Below are positions 1 through 35,562 of a stretch of DNA of 64,000 nt, in pieces. Under the pieces are notes generated by a model. It saw only the letters and a list, made by a program, of their open reading frames with translations. It did not search any database and was not told where the DNA came from. The position numbers and the translations under genes were made by a program. Origin of the DNA: Amygdalobacter nucleatus. Lineage in GTDB: Bacteria > Bacillota > Clostridia > Saccharofermentanales > Fastidiosipilaceae. Location: positions 550,001 through 614,000 of the forward strand of contig NZ_JARFNM010000001.1 of assembly GCF_029167365.1 (NCBI RefSeq), read 5' to 3'. The number at the start of each line of letters is the position of its first letter. Within the stretch, counting starts at the first letter, position 1.

Positions 1-1832
<1,832 letters not shown>

Positions 1833-5537: not shown

Positions 5538-6001
5538 TGCAGGTACAGATTGTAGCTGTTGGTTCTGTTAAGGAAAAATACATTCTCACGGGTATTAGTG
5601 ATTTTCAGAAACGCTTAAGACGTTTTTGCAATTTAAGTATAGTTGAAATTACTGCACAGCCTGATCAGATGGAAGCTAGACGGGCACTCAAGATAGAAGC
5701 TGATTTAATTCGGCAAAAGTGGCTTACGAAAGCTTATAAGGTTGCTTTAACACCACATGGTAAAGAACTTAGCTCAGAAGAGTTAGCAGCGAAGCTACCT
5801 AAATGGTTGGAGCAAGGAAATTCGGAGCTTACATTGATAATAGGTTCTTCAAGAGGTCTTGCTGCTGATATAATTAAAGAATGTCAGGCGACATGGGCGT
5901 TTGGCCCTTTAACCTTAACGCATGGTGTAGCTAGATTTATTGCAATTGAACAAATTTACCGTGCATATAAAATAAATGCGAATGAAGCCTATCACAAATA
6001 G
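5537..6001 (+). CDS. rlmH: 23S rRNA (pseudouridine-1915 N3)-methyltransferase RlmH
   Basis: RlmH is a SPOUT-class enzyme that methylates pseudouridine 1915 in helix 69 of 23S rRNA on the assembled 70S ribosome. The 154-residue product matches the usual length. It has the glycine-rich SAM-binding segment LIIGSSRGLA and the C-terminal family signature EQIYRAYKIN followed by EAYHK. The ATG at 5537 overlaps the murA stop by one base (ATGA-type coupling); an in-frame TTG at 5534 is less likely. It is the last gene before a terminator. Confidence 0.95.
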   Translation: MQVQIVAVGSVKEKYILTGISDFQKRLRRFCNLSIVEITAQPDQMEARRALKIEADLIRQKWLTKAYKVALTPHGKELSSEELAAKLPKWLEQGNSELTLIIGSSRGLAADIIKECQATWAFGPLTLTHGVARFIAIEQIYRAYKINANEAYHK

Positions 6002-6014
6002 GCTGATTAGGTTG

Positions 6015-6042
6015 CGTAAAAGCTAAATTTTACGTGTTTTTT
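6015..6042 (+). terminator. Rho-independent terminator after rlmH
   Basis: CGTAAAA, 6-nt loop, TTTTACG, then a GTG TTTTTT tract. This separates the murA operon from the str operon. Confidence 0.75.
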
Positions 6043-6055
6043 GGTCAAATTGGCC

Positions 6056-6084
6056 TTTTCAAAATACAAAAAGAAGATTATAAT
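6056..6084 (+). promoter_or_regulatory. promoter of the str operon
   Basis: TTTTCA (6056-6061), 17-nt spacer, perfect TATAAT (6079-6084). It starts just after the rlmH terminator and is the only good promoter upstream of rpsL. Confidence 0.6.
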
Positions 6085-6090
6085 TGTGAA

Positions 6091-6109
6091 GATTGGTTTT
6101 GTGCCAATC
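6091..6109 (+). promoter_or_regulatory. 5'-leader hairpin of rpsL mRNA
   Basis: GATTGG, 7-nt loop, CCAATC: a 6-bp perfect stem that would lie at the very 5' end of the transcript predicted from the promoter at 6056-6084. It may be a stability hairpin or a protein-binding element; no strong T-run follows, so it is a poor terminator. Confidence 0.4.
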
Positions 6110-6141
6110 TATTAGTTTTGCCTGTGAAAGGAGGAGTATTG

Positions 6142-6570
6142 ATGCCAACGTTCAATCAGTTAGTTAAGCAAGGACGCAGCTCAAAGACTTACAAGCCAAA
6201 AGCACCAGCTTTGCATGTAAAGATGAATACTTTGAAGAAGCGTACAAGCAACGTTGTTTCACCACAAAAGCGCGGTGTTTGCACTGTCGTTAAGACAACA
6301 ACACCAAAGAAACCAAACTCAGCTATGCGTAAGGTGGCTCGTGTTCGTTTGACTTCAGGTTTGGAAGTAACTTCATACATTCCTGGTATTGGTCACAACT
6401 TGCAAGAGCACTCAGTTGTTTTGATTCGTGGTGGCCGTGTTAAGGATTTACCTGGTGTTCGTTATCATATCATTCGCGGTACATTGGATACTGCTGGTGT
6501 TGCTAACAGAATGCAGGGTCGTTCTAAGTATGGTGCTAAACGACCAAAGTCAGCTAAGGTTAAGAAATAA
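6142..6570 (+). CDS. rpsL: 30S ribosomal protein S12
   Basis: S12 sits at the decoding centre of the 30S subunit and influences accuracy. The 142-residue product carries the family hallmark segments [19 protein letters not shown] and [11 protein letters not shown]; the Lys whose mutation gives streptomycin resistance is present as in wild type (TPKKPNS). The start is ATG 6142, preceded by AAAGGAGGAG with good spacing; the reading frame is open further upstream, but nothing there resembles S12. It is the first gene of the rpsL-rpsG-fusA-tuf cluster. Confidence 0.98.
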
Positions 6571-31886: not shown

Positions 31887-32621
31887 ATGAAAGCGAGAGT
31901 TCATTCTTTTGAGAGTTTCGGTACCGTTGATGGACCGGGTATACGCTTTGTCATCTTTATGCAGGGCTGTCCTTTGCGTTGTTTATACTGTCATAATCCT
32001 GATACGTGGACATTGAATGCAGGTACAGAGTATGATGTCGAAGAACTTGTACAAAAAGTGCTTAAGTACCGTAATTACATTAAAAGTGGTGGCGTGACAG
32101 TTAGTGGTGGCGAGCCATTATTGCAAATTGATTTTTTGATTGAGTTTTACAAACGGATGAAAGAAGAAGGAATTCATACTTGCTGTGATACTTCAGGCTA
32201 TGTTTTCACGCCTAGAGCAACAGCAAAGTTTGATGAACTGATTAAGTATTGCGATTTGTTTTTACTTGATATTAAGCAGATTGATCCAGCTAAACACAAA
32301 GTTTTAACTGGTGTTAAATCTGATAATATCCTTAAGTTTGCACGCTATTTGAGTGATCATAATAAAACAATGTGGATTAGACATGTTTTAGTACCTGGTT
32401 ATACAGATCAAAGAGAAGATTGGATTAAACTTAGACAATTTATTGATACGTTGAAGACAGTTGAGAAGGTCGAAATTCTGCCTTATCACACAATGGGTGT
32501 TAATAAGTATAAAATGATGAACATGAGCTATCCTTTGGAGGGGGTAGAACCGCCTAAGAAGGATGTCATAGAAATGGCACGTGCAGTTGTAGAAAGAGGA
32601 GAGTATGACAAAATCAGTTGA
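31887..32621 (+). CDS. pflA: pyruvate formate-lyase-activating enzyme
   Basis: PflA is the radical-SAM activase that puts the glycyl radical on PFL. The 244-residue product has the [4Fe-4S]-binding CxxxCxxC with C28, C32 and C35 in GCPLRCLYC, an N-terminal FGTVDGPGIRFV, and VSGGEPLL for SAM binding. The length is normal. RBS AGAGGTGAAGG precedes ATG 31887. It overlaps the next gene by 17 nt. In many bacteria pflA lies after pflB; here it is first. It should act on the separate 77-residue glycyl-radical subunit at 35242. Confidence 0.96.
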   Translation: MKARVHSFESFGTVDGPGIRFVIFMQGCPLRCLYCHNPDTWTLNAGTEYDVEELVQKVLKYRNYIKSGGVTVSGGEPLLQIDFLIEFYKRMKEEGIHTCCDTSGYVFTPRATAKFDELIKYCDLFLLDIKQIDPAKHKVLTGVKSDNILKFARYLSDHNKTMWIRHVLVPGYTDQREDWIKLRQFIDTLKTVEKVEILPYHTMGVNKYKMMNMSYPLEGVEPPKKDVIEMARAVVERGEYDKIS

Positions 32622-32934
32622 AATTGATAATGAGAACTTTCAAGAAGTTGTAGCAAACGGTACTCACTTGATTGAGTTGGGCGGTGATGGTTGTTCCGGG
32701 TGCATAGCTTTAAAGCCTATTGTTATGGATTTATTACCTAAATATCCTGATGTTATCTATCATAATGTTGTTGTTACACACCGGACATCTGAAATTTGCC
32801 ATCGCTATGAGATAGATAGAATACCAGCCTTGCTCGTAATTCATAATGGTGTTTTAGTAGCTTCAGTTAAGGGCTTCCAACCTGCTGAAATCTTAGATTT
32901 GTGGCTTGAAGATGTTATCTCTAAATTGAAGTAA
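32605..32934 (+). CDS. small thioredoxin-fold protein with CSGC motif
   Basis: This is a 109-residue cytoplasmic protein with thioredoxin-like spacing: a beta strand, then C30-S-G-C33 in GGDGCSGCIALKP at the helix start, and IPALLVIHNG, where thioredoxins have their cis-proline segment. There is no signal peptide. The start overlaps pflA by 17 nt with GGAG just upstream, so the two are translationally linked. Its place between activase and PFL suggests it supports redox maintenance of the PFL system, for example the catalytic cysteines or the activase; that is inference. It could also be a general thioredoxin. Confidence 0.8.
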   Translation: MTKSVEIDNENFQEVVANGTHLIELGGDGCSGCIALKPIVMDLLPKYPDVIYHNVVVTHRTSEICHRYEIDRIPALLVIHNGVLVASVKGFQPAEILDLWLEDVISKLK

Positions 32935-33045: not shown

Positions 33046-33061
33046 TTGTGATGTGTCACAA
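33046..33061. promoter_or_regulatory. inverted repeat upstream of pflB, candidate redox or CRP/FNR-type operator
   Basis: TTGTGA-TGTG-TCACAA is a perfect 6-bp inverted repeat with 4-nt spacer, 61 nt upstream of the pflB -10 hexamer. Half-sites resemble both CRP/FNR-family (TGTGA...TCACA) and Rex (TTGTGA...TCACAA) sites, but the classical spacer for those half-sites is 6 nt. Confidence 0.5.
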
Positions 33062-33184: not shown

Positions 33185-35185
33185 ATGGAAGCTTATAGAA
33201 GTTTCAAAAAAGGTCATTGGATGGACACGATTGATGTTCGTGACTTTATCCAACACAACTACACACCCTATGAAGGCGATGATTCATTCTTGGAAGGACC
33301 AACCGAGGCAACTAATCAACTCTGGTCACAAGTAATGGAATTAAACAAGCAAGAAGCTGCTAAAGGCGGTGTCCTTGACGCTGATACAAAGATTGTATCA
33401 ACAATTACATCACATGGCCCTGGTTATCTTAACAAAGATTTAGAGAAGATCGTTGGCTTCCAAACTGATAAGCCTTTCAAGCGTTCATTACAACCATTCG
33501 GTGGTATTCGTATGGCTGAGAGTGCTTTATCTGCTTATGGCTACACAATTGACCCTGAAGTTGAAGAAATTTTCACTAAGTATCGTAAGACACACAACCA
33601 AGGCGTTTTCGATGCTTACACACCAGAAATGAAGGCTGCACGTCATTGCGGTATCATTACTGGTTTGCCAGATGCTTATGGCCGCGGCCGTATCATTGGT
33701 GACTATCGTCGAGTTGCTCTTTATGGTATTGATCGTTTGATCGAAGATAAGAAAGAACAATTACATATTCTTGAAGCTCCAACAATGACAGCCGATATTA
33801 TCCGTGATCGTGAAGAGATCAGCGAGCAAATCCGTGCTTTGGATGAAATGGCCCAAATGGCAGCTACATACGGGTTTGATATTCGTCGCCCAGCTGAGAC
33901 AGCTCAGGAAGCTATTCAATGGCTCTATTTCGCTTACTTATCAGCTGTTAAGGAGCAAAACGGTGCTGCAATGAGCTTAGGCCGTACATCTACATTCTTG
34001 GATATTTACATTCAACGTGACTTGGAAGAAGGCCGTATCACAGAGAAGGAAGCTCAGGAATTCATGGATCACTTCGTTATGAAGTTACGTCTTGTCAAGT
34101 TCATGCGTACACCTGAATACAATGATTTGTTCTCTGGCGATCCTACATGGGTTACAGAGTCAATCGGTGGTATGGGTATTGATGGCCGTACATTGGTTAC
34201 AAAGAACTCATTCCGTGTTTTGCATACATTGTCTAACTTAGGACCAGCCCCAGAACCAAACTTGACAGTTCTTTGGTCCCCACGTTTGCCAATTGGTTTC
34301 CGTCGCTTCTGCGCAAAGACATCAATCAACACATCTTCTATCCAATATGAGAGTGATGAATTGATGCGTGCTGAGATGTTCGATGACTATGCAATCGCTT
34401 GCTGCGTCAGCTCAATGCGTGTTGGTAAAGAAATGCAATTCTTTGGTGCTCGTGCTAACTTGGCTAAGTGCCTACTCTATGCTATCAACGGTGGTATGGA
34501 TGAAAAGAAGAAGATGCAAGTTGCTCCTAAGTTCGCTCCTATCACAAGCGAGTATCTCGATTATGATGAAGTTATGGAGAAGTACACTCAAATGATGGAG
34601 TGGTTAGCTGGCTTGTATGTGAATGCTTTAAACATCATCCACTACATGCATGATAAGTATTGCTACGAGCGTTCAGAGATGGCTTTGCATGACCGTGTTG
34701 TTAAACGTTATTTCGCTACTGGTATCGCTGGCTTGAGTGTTGTGGCTGATAGCTTGTCTGCAATTAAGTATGCTAAGGTAAAGCCAATTCGTGACGAAGA
34801 TGGTGTTGCTGTTGACTTCGAAATTGAAGGCGACTTCCCTAAGTATGGTAACAACGATGACCGTGTTGACTTGATCGCCGCTCACTTGGTATCTACTTTC
34901 ATGAATATGATTCGTAAGCATCATACATATCGTAACAGTATCCCAACTATGAGTATCTTAACCATTACATCTAACGTTGTTTATGGTAAGAAGACAGGTA
35001 CAACACCTGATGGCCGTAGGGCTGGTCAACCATTTGCCCCAGGTGCTAACCCAATGCATGGCCGTGATAGTAACGGAGCTTTGGCTTCCTTGGAGAGTGT
35101 TGCTAAGTTACCTTACAGCGATTCTCGTGACGGTATTTCAAATACATTCTCACTTGTACCTAACTCATTAGGTAAAGAGGATTAA
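33185..35185 (+). CDS. pflB: pyruvate formate-lyase catalytic subunit lacking the glycyl-radical domain
   Basis: PFL converts pyruvate and CoA to acetyl-CoA and formate. The 666-residue product aligns with ordinary PFL (about 740-760 residues) from its N-terminus through the catalytic cysteine pair C406-C407 ([10 protein letters not shown], equivalent to Cys418-Cys419 of E. coli PflB) and on to [16 protein letters not shown], then stops. In E. coli the same stretch reads NALGKDD and continues into the glycyl-radical domain. Here that domain is a separate gene 56 nt downstream. Start ATG 33185 has AGGAGGAAAT. The chain alone has no glycyl-radical site, so activity should need the downstream subunit. 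Confidence 0.93.
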
Positions 35186-35241
35186 TTAGTTAATAAGTTA
35201 ACTTATTTAAGTTATAAATTATTGTTTGGAGGAGATAGACT

Positions 35242-35475
35242 ATGGCTAAAAGAGAAGACAACCTAGTTGAATTAATTGATGGTTATATCATGGATGGCGG
35301 TCACCATTTGAATGTTAACGTTTTCAATCGCGATACATTGTTGGACGCTCAAGCACATCCAGAAAAGTACCCACAATTGACAATTCGTGTCAGTGGTTAT
35401 GCTGTTAACTTTAATAAGTTGACAAAGGAACAACAAGATGAGGTTATTGCTCGTACAATGCATGAGCATATGTAA
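35242..35475 (+). CDS. stand-alone glycyl-radical domain, second subunit of PFL (GrcA/YfiD-like)
   Basis: The 77-residue product equals the C-terminal domain of [39 protein letters not shown] with the radical glycine at residue 52, and [18 protein letters not shown] at the end. The start ATG 35242 has a strong GGAGGAG 7 nt upstream. The stop codon of the large subunit and an in-frame TAG at 35236-35238 separate the two, and they are in different frames, so this is not a read-through. E. coli GrcA (YfiD) is a similar small protein, but there it only repairs an intact PFL; here no radical domain is present on the large chain. Confidence 0.92.
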
Positions 35476-35495
35476 TCTTATTACTTGTTTCAGAA

Positions 35496-35523
35496 AAGGC
35501 GTTGCACTAGCAACGCCTTTTTT
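35496..35523 (+). terminator. terminator of the PFL operon
   Basis: AAGGCGTTGC-ACTA-GCAACGCCTT followed by a T-run: a perfect 10-bp stem with tetraloop. Confidence 0.95.
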
Positions 35524-35562
35524 GTATTATTAGCTTATAGCCTTAACTAGTGGAGGTATCGT

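Follow-up and report, generated by a model that had tools for sequence, protein, structure and literature searches.

A putative two-subunit pyruvate formate-lyase of Amygdalobacter nucleatus with the glycyl-radical domain on a separate chain

We analysed a stretch of 64,000 nucleotides of the Amygdalobacter nucleatus genome (contig NZ_JARFNM010000001.1, positions 550,001 to 614,000 of the forward strand; hereafter the window), in which pyruvate formate-lyase (PFL) is encoded by two genes, one for a 666-residue core subunit that ends before the glycyl-radical domain and one for a 77-residue radical subunit that carries it. PFL belongs to the textbook enzymes of anaerobic fermentation, and oxygen breaks its chain at the radical glycine. 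We consider it very probable (about 90%) that the locus specifies a working two-subunit PFL. This reading is carried, at the level of sequence, by the demonstrable division of the PFL residues between the two chains, by the lack of any other PFL-family gene in the genome, by conservation, and by mutual exclusion with fused PFL in two genome samples. With the radical domain removable, as in a natural two-subunit form, activation, docking, radical transfer and repair would become separately measurable. If the reading is true, it suggests that the fragile part of the enzyme can be replaced without remaking the whole, and where the small protein has been taken to indicate oxygen repair, an essential subunit may have been misread.

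Division of PFL between two chains

An initial annotation, made from the letters of the stretch, had proposed a two-gene PFL with open reading frames (ORFs) of 666 and 77 residues in different frames, separated by 56 nucleotides (nt), the second gene having its own ribosome-binding site and being preceded by an in-frame stop codon. All of these elements, with their coordinates, were confirmed from the sequence and are as follows (window positions).

33185–35185, + strand: PFL core subunit, 666 residues, without glycyl-radical domain (family models, alignment, and an identical stretch in PDB chain 38la_A)
34400–34405, + strand: codons of the catalytic pair C406-C407 (aligned to E. coli C418/C419, mature numbering)
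35186–35241, + strand: 56-nt gap between the core and the small gene
35192–35207: perfect palindrome of 16 nt inside the gap (repeat search)
35228–35234, + strand: ribosome-binding site GGAGGAG of the small gene
35236–35238, + strand: in-frame TAG, six bases 5' of the second ATG
35242–35475, + strand: radical subunit, 77 residues, GrcA3-like, with RVSGYAV (Pfam Gly_radical, 80.9 bits, model positions 52–106)
35395–35397, + strand: codon of the radical glycine G52 (aligned to E. coli G734, mature numbering)

Alignment of the core with E. coli PflB covers residues 9–679 at 67.7% identity, while the 77-residue protein covers residues 679–760 at 64.9% identity, and therefore the two pieces tile the whole of PFL. 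The residues C406 and C407 of the core fall on C419 and C420 of E. coli PflB (numbering from Met; C418/C419 in the mature protein), and G52 of the small protein falls on G735 (mature G734). Against the family model TIGR01255 the core scores 1125.9 bits (cut-off 994.2) with a match that stops at model position 662 of 744, and the small protein covers positions 665–744. The radical glycine is thus absent from the core chain and sits on a separate ORF. The earlier claim that the core holds the catalytic Cys pair without a radical domain, and that the small gene encodes the whole of that domain, is borne out by both comparisons. The AlphaFold model of the core has a mean predicted local distance difference test score (pLDDT) of 88 and superimposes on E. 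coli PFL (PDB 2pfl) with a Z-score of 60.4 over 659 residues. Its low-confidence stretches are residues 317–320, 593–599, 617–626 and 656–666, and the attachment end of the missing domain is among them. Foldseek matches of the small protein add little beyond its sequence, given the poor model of this chain.

The whole genome (1,614,203 bases, 3 contigs) was searched for PFL-family genes. The profile of the PFL core family, PF02901, has a single match, which is this core, and no second PFL-family gene was found with it. This result supports the proposal of a two-gene PFL over that of a spare part next to a full PFL; a full-length PFL elsewhere in the genome, of which the two genes might have been remnants, was looked for in this search and not found. 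The glycyl-radical family PF01228 has one match besides this locus, in a frame whose translation, judged by eye, reads as the anaerobic ribonucleotide reductase NrdD. By a split PFL we mean a core that ends before the radical domain, a separate small ORF that carries the radical loop, and no fused PFL in the genome, which is what we find for the window. The PFL-activating enzyme is encoded in the same cluster by pflA, which scores above the cut-off of TIGR02493.

Distribution of the split gene pair

A scan of GTDB genomes with the 77-residue protein (573 of 585 pattern matches confirmed) listed 80 loci, and the counts are lower bounds. The arrangement of a core ending upstream and a separate small ORF is present in 71 of the 80 loci among the matches listed, which come from Clostridia, Erysipelotrichaceae, Coriobacteriia and others, so that the split recurs in other genomes, as the initial annotation had asked to be examined for related ones. 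Three of the listed loci have a fused PFL (Enterococcus casseliflavus L076 and the metagenome-assembled genomes (MAGs) L078 and L100), and in six the fetched stretch contains the small gene but no core. Fifty of the 80 genomes were searched whole: 47 have a split core and 3 a fused PFL. Only two of the 47 additionally hold a fused PFL (L064 and Blautia caecimuris L097, 65–66% identical to the window core), and the other 45 lack a full-length PFL of the same family. For all six core-less loci the genome carries a split core elsewhere. In five of them (G079, G081, G087, G094 and G104) this core has its own small gene and the scanned one is an extra copy, while in G097 the core and the small gene lie on different contigs. 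A single lone small gene is held by 41 of the 47 split genomes; the remaining six, including G093, hold two or three together with one core.

Co-occurrence of the lone small gene with fused PFL was counted in two samples at an expect value (E) of at most 1e-19, one of 118 genomes from the order of an Erysipelotrichaceae MAG and one of 120 genomes from the family of Blautia caecimuris. The 118 genomes comprise 37 with the lone small gene only, 57 with fused PFL only, none with both and 24 with neither. For the 120 genomes the corresponding numbers are 42, 47, 3 and 28, amounting to a lone small gene in 45 genomes and a fused PFL in 50; here G651, in which the frame runs off the contig end, was reassigned to fused. 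Under independence, and with relatedness ignored, overlaps this small have probabilities of 1e-14 and 2.5e-10, respectively. Because a repair protein is expected beside a full PFL, the rarity with which the lone small gene and fused PFL occur together argues for an obligate subunit rather than a spare part.

Eighty genomes, most of them selected for their lone small gene, were then searched for the core; 77 came from the two samples (G651 included) and 3 from a phylum sample described below. The core was present in 78. In the two genomes where it was not found, G557 and G639, the small gene begins 269 and 515 bases from the contig start, and the core may be cut off. The phylum sample consisted of 398 genomes of the window's phylum with a completeness of at least 90, and its counts are likewise lower bounds. 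Lone small frames of at least 73% identity are present in at least four of these genomes (the window's, G311, G469 and G485). Three more short frames were seen, one at a contig edge (G132), one with unknown bases (G288) and one encoding a 47%-identical protein of unclear kind (G292). No lone small gene was found in the 11 other family members of the window organism, three of which gave no match at all. The split is therefore rare within the window's own phylum. In total, 88 split loci besides the window are at hand (91 less the window, L153 and L161). The split PFL is widespread, is common in both sampled groups, and occurs in many gut bacteria.

Conservation and selection

Two loci, L153 (core frame broken) and L161 (unknown bases), were excluded from the conservation counts. 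The pair C406/C407 is invariant in 86 of 86 split cores, and the radical loop, G52 included, in 89 of 89 aligned split radical subunits when the uncropped alignment is used; in a cropped alignment of the loop 84 of 86 rows carry letters, the other two small subunits appearing there as gaps. Both genes have a ratio of nonsynonymous to synonymous substitution rates (dN/dS) below 0.3 in each of the 15 pairs compared, although low substitution counts in the small gene make single values rough. Evolutionary distances of core and small subunit are correlated (r = 0.705, reached by none of 1000 permutations), a correlation that common descent alone can produce.

Comparison with known systems

The single-chain PFL (E. 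coli PflB, TIGR01255, PDB 2pfl) shares with the window proteins the whole core, the Cys pair, the radical loop and the PflA partner, and differs in that the radical domain is here on its own chain, cut at the residue equivalent to E. coli 679. A free-standing radical domain is also known from GrcA/YfiD (TIGR04365, PDB 6owr), and residues 15–75 of the small subunit match residues 65–125 of YfiD. Unlike YfiD, the small subunit lacks a disordered N-terminus of 60 residues (described for YfiD in PMC8683613; for this and the other papers cited by PMC number, statements refer to the part of the text that was accessible), and it retains a PFL helix (10 protein letters, not shown) that is absent from the matched part of YfiD. 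In contrast to GrcA, it has no full PFL in its genome to repair. The closest engineered counterpart is tPFL (residues 1–695), in which a core is likewise complemented in trans in vitro by YfiD or truncated YfiD (PMC8683613); this is a laboratory truncation made 17 residues further on, while the split of the window is natural.

The window protein narrowly misses the NCBIfam model NF038360 (GrcA3), with 154.3 bits against a cut-off of 158. Five of six other split-type small proteins pass this cut-off, and the sixth, from a viral contig, misses it narrowly. Judged from these scores, split-type small subunits and GrcA3 very likely belong to the same family. Like the window's core, the split cores of three further loci pass as formate C-acetyltransferase, and the radical subunit is named a cofactor; family models therefore hide the split.

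Two PDB entries named “Formate acetyltransferase” bear on the core. The chain 38la_A (687 residues, four chains in the entry) contains, at residues 22–687 and behind a 21-residue extension, a sequence identical to the whole window core, and 38lb_A resembles long-type split cores (defined below), tail included. Neither 38la nor 38lb was among the listed structure matches of the core model, for which the structure library ended on 2026-04-08. Papers on Ca. Mycoplasma girerdii mention a “cofactor” next to PFL (PMC9239101, PMC5476646), and grcA and pflB are down-regulated together in Fannyhessea vaginae (PMC11979175). We found no paper describing a split PFL in the open-access literature, outside which most subscription papers lie. 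The initial annotation's remark that such a split was not known to be described thus stands for the open-access papers, but has to be qualified, as PDB 38la contains this very core, NCBIfam has GrcA3, and the arrangement is widespread. As far as our searches reach, split PFL has been touched by structural work (38la) and by the GrcA3 family, yet is not described as such in the open papers found.

Proposed mechanism and alternative explanations

By analogy with PflB we propose that the 666-residue subunit would form the barrel and hold the Cys406/Cys407 pair that attacks pyruvate, while the 77-residue subunit, carrying the radical Gly52, would dock at the site occupied by the C-terminal domain in an ordinary PFL. 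PflA, encoded upstream, would abstract a hydrogen from Gly52 of the small subunit, and the docked radical loop, lying beside Cys407, would oxidise the core cysteine, allowing the conversion of pyruvate and coenzyme A to acetyl-CoA and formate. Cleavage by O2 at Gly52 would then cost only the 77-residue subunit, and a fresh one could replace it. The scheme would presuppose that the two chains assemble, that PflA activates the small subunit, that catalysis proceeds in trans and that an oxygen-damaged small subunit is replaced. Additional small genes in 6 of 47 split genomes, together with the lone ones on 10 viral contigs, fit subunit replacement or control of subunit amount.

That a PFL with a separate radical domain can function has precedent. 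E. coli tPFL (1–695) together with separate YfiD is catalytically functional in vitro, being “active as wild-type” (PMC8683613), and an E. coli strain with PflB G734A produces intermediate amounts of formate with GrcA and none without it (PMC12338860). For A. nucleatus KA00274, a draft genome of 1.61 Mb and 39.3% GC is reported, with formate among the major end products (PMC11318147); the GC content of the window is 39.4% (mean of four 16-kb blocks). The species is also treated as formate-producing in PMC12208373, where the PFL inhibitor hypophosphite reduces its growth and where 63 spectra of PFL unique to Amygdalobacter (BVAB2) come from bacterial-vaginosis samples. Because A. nucleatus, whose only PFL is split, is reported to produce formate, the enzyme probably works, and split PFL is probably functional in life.

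Several observations weigh against a working two-subunit enzyme. That the two proteins bind and act jointly is something we infer from their sequences. No GrcA3-like or radical-subunit chain of 38la or 38lb was found among the matches of two small subunits, and the AlphaFold model of the lone small protein is poor (pLDDT 63). Five of the 78 cores found beside lone small genes are partial or broken (G572, G584, G651, G659 and G677). To judge from tPFL, which binds YfiD more weakly and is activated less than a longer cleaved PFL (PMC8683613), a separate radical domain can cost something. The link to a formate-producing strain is also weakened, since one 16S gene was matched in the genome, compared with two 16S copies in PMC11318147. 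In the stretch G000:C1:545000-551000 (L165), a 23S gene begins after about 4.8 kb and runs into window positions 1–1832; a search for 16S in the 4.8 kb before it gave no match, which masked stretches could explain.

Could the small protein be a spare part of the usual GrcA type, next to a core that has decayed into an inactive PFL? The NCBI model GrcA3 does name such proteins “autonomous glycyl radical cofactor”. A spare part, however, would find no full-length PFL to repair in this genome, nor, within the same family, in 45 of 47 split genomes; the lone small gene and fused PFL avoid each other in both samples; and the score against TIGR04365, the model of E. coli GrcA, lies far below the cut-off (97.2 against 170 bits). 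Decay of the core is opposed by the Cys pair kept in all 86 cores and by purifying selection in 15 of 15 core pairs. We regard this explanation as highly improbable. Still less credible, to the point of being negligible, is that a frameshift, a sequencing error or recoding (readthrough or programmed frameshifting) joins the frames into one chain. The genes are adjacent and their lengths add up to a normal PFL, but the 56-nt gap contains stops and a ribosome-binding site of its own. Across 84 measured split loci, 16 of which hold a third gene, the gap spans 1 to 427 nt, all three frame relations occur (33, 30 and 21), and a Shine-Dalgarno-like site is present in 83. Joining would also leave the extra small genes in 6 of 47 split genomes and the separate contigs of G097 without a place. 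Sequencing error in particular is very unlikely given the 88 other split loci, and a pseudogene or an error was ruled out by the recurrence in many species and by the purifying selection in 15 of 15 pairs.

Another alternative retains the same two-gene enzyme and differs in purpose: the split could serve stoichiometric or regulatory control, with the small subunit in excess over the core, and not oxygen repair. The two or three small genes per core in 6 of 47 split genomes, the position of some extra copies next to unrelated genes (e.g. rubrerythrin or a FUR-family gene) and the palindrome inside the window's gap speak for such control, whereas the single lone small gene in 41 of 47 split genomes speaks against it. 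We hold it to be a serious contender, somewhat less likely than an even chance.

Origin of the split

A tree was built by a quick method from 123 cores, of which 86 are split and 37 fused; L018 and L019, which come from the genomes and contigs of L012 and L013, were excluded, as were core pieces shorter than 400 residues. On it the split/fused label needs four changes. The split cores form two related sets, 46 “short” ones that end 2–7 residues past the ..LG motif, the window's among them, and 40 “long” ones that end 16–52 residues past it. Fused rows are nested in both, L078 in the short set and L100 and L124–L127 in the long set. In the best tree a branch (support 43) sets off the split rows together with the six nested fused rows, while the tails and the operon order separate the two split groups; the split may have arisen once or twice. 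In the fused L126, from the Blautia family sample, the linker retains a Cys-rich long-type tail followed by the start of a small subunit, a sequence such as would be expected of secondary re-fusion.

The window core lies nearest to split cores of Erysipelotrichaceae; it falls inside their clade and shares 80% identity with one of them. Seven of the 11 other family members, by contrast, have fused PFLs that are 58–64% identical to it and lie elsewhere in the tree. The split genes of the window were therefore probably acquired by horizontal transfer. Local fission within the window's own family was considered and is unlikely on the same grounds.

A third protein and a Cys motif in long-type loci

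In all 16 long-type loci with a core-small gap of at least 215 nt, the gap codes for a protein of 55–89 residues (L072:5688-5945, + strand, and the gaps of L083, L086, L089, L109, L141, L144, L145, L149, L151, L152, L155, L156, L158, L159 and L160; the protein of L144 has 55 residues). By hhalign, the first part of this third protein aligns with the small subunit over 37 columns (probability 96.7, E = 4e-10), and five of ten third proteins tested match the start of GrcA3 at E ≤ 0.1, the best at 7e-6. It has no radical loop or glycine and ends in a Cys motif, A-C-x-x-P, that is invariant in 15 of 15 aligned proteins (L144 was excluded from this alignment). Long-type gaps proved to be coding, and hairpins or terminators in the long core-small gaps showed nothing consistent; a search of 14 of the 16 gaps against Rfam at gathering thresholds gave no match.

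A Cys on the core tail is found in none of the 16 loci with the third gene and in all 24 without it (Fisher 1.6e-11, relatedness ignored). Tail Cys and third gene are complementary, and therefore a Cys segment is always present in these 40 loci, in cis or in trans. The window has neither a tail Cys nor a third protein, and its cluster has a thioredoxin-like protein with a CxxC motif. Our guess is that, as long as the barrel stands open with no radical subunit docked, the Cys segment serves as its placeholder or redox guard. Tentatively, and with the odds somewhat against it, PFL might be viewed, in much of the gut Firmicutes, as a modular enzyme with an exchangeable radical subunit, with one to three small genes per core, copies brought by phages, and, in one lineage, the Cys motif of the core tail or of the third protein in that guarding role.

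Operon organization and neighbouring genes

The remaining features of the window locus are the following.

31887–32621, + strand: pflA, radical S-adenosylmethionine PFL-activating enzyme, 244 residues (TIGR02493, 332.3 bits, cut-off 231.75)
32605–32934, + strand: thioredoxin-like protein, 109 residues, C-S-G-C motif, overlapping the end of pflA (Pfam Thioredoxin, 42.9 bits)
33046–33061, no strand assigned: perfect dyad TTGTGA-N4-TCACAA 5' of the core, a candidate regulator site (repeat search)
35491–35524, + strand: intrinsic-terminator-like site with a 15-pair stem and a T run, 3' of the radical subunit

A terminator scan of the 56-nt gap found no intrinsic-terminator-like site between the core and the small gene. 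Because the site at 35491–35524 is the first of its kind on the + strand past the core, the two genes probably share one transcript. The dyad might be bound by a CRP/FNR-type or redox regulator, the type of regulator being a guess.

Gene order was counted where a locus had 1.5 kb of flank or more; the window is one of the 40 short-type loci. In the short type pflA lies upstream in 39 of 40 loci and downstream in none of 41, and a thioredoxin-like gene lies upstream in 36 of 40. In the long type pflA is upstream in 0 of 22 loci and downstream in 20 of 21, and the thioredoxin-like gene is found in 0 of 22. None of eight fused loci with enough flank has the thioredoxin-like gene or an upstream pflA. 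An upstream pflA is nevertheless seen in four fused loci with shorter flanks (L078, L128, L129 and L142), and this order is therefore not special to the split. The CxxC motif is kept in 37 of 38 thioredoxin-like proteins (CANC in 24), the remaining one being an alignment gap, and it is possible that the protein encoded at 32605–32934 serves as a redox partner of PflA or of the core.

Lone extra radical-subunit genes away from the core (small gene near 6001–6234) occur in L075, L087, L062, L106 and L059. Their neighbours are a rubrerythrin gene in L075, a FUR-family gene in L087, and otherwise unrelated genes. Radical subunits extended to 138 residues (L080:4684-5097) and 130 residues (L084:4860-5249) were also observed.

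Contigs labelled viral

Ten IMG/VR contigs (L111, L114–L119 and L121–L123) carry stand-alone split-type radical subunits with no core in the fetched stretch. These may be phage-borne subunits, their viral nature resting on the IMG/VR label. A further contig, L113, has a complete split PFL nearly identical to the bacterial MAG locus L056 and may be host DNA. In L112:6001-8267 and L120:3548-5814, also from IMG/VR, the radical subunit is followed by a split core with two in-frame TGA codons, both of which align to Trp residues of the window core, suggesting that TGA is read as Trp there.

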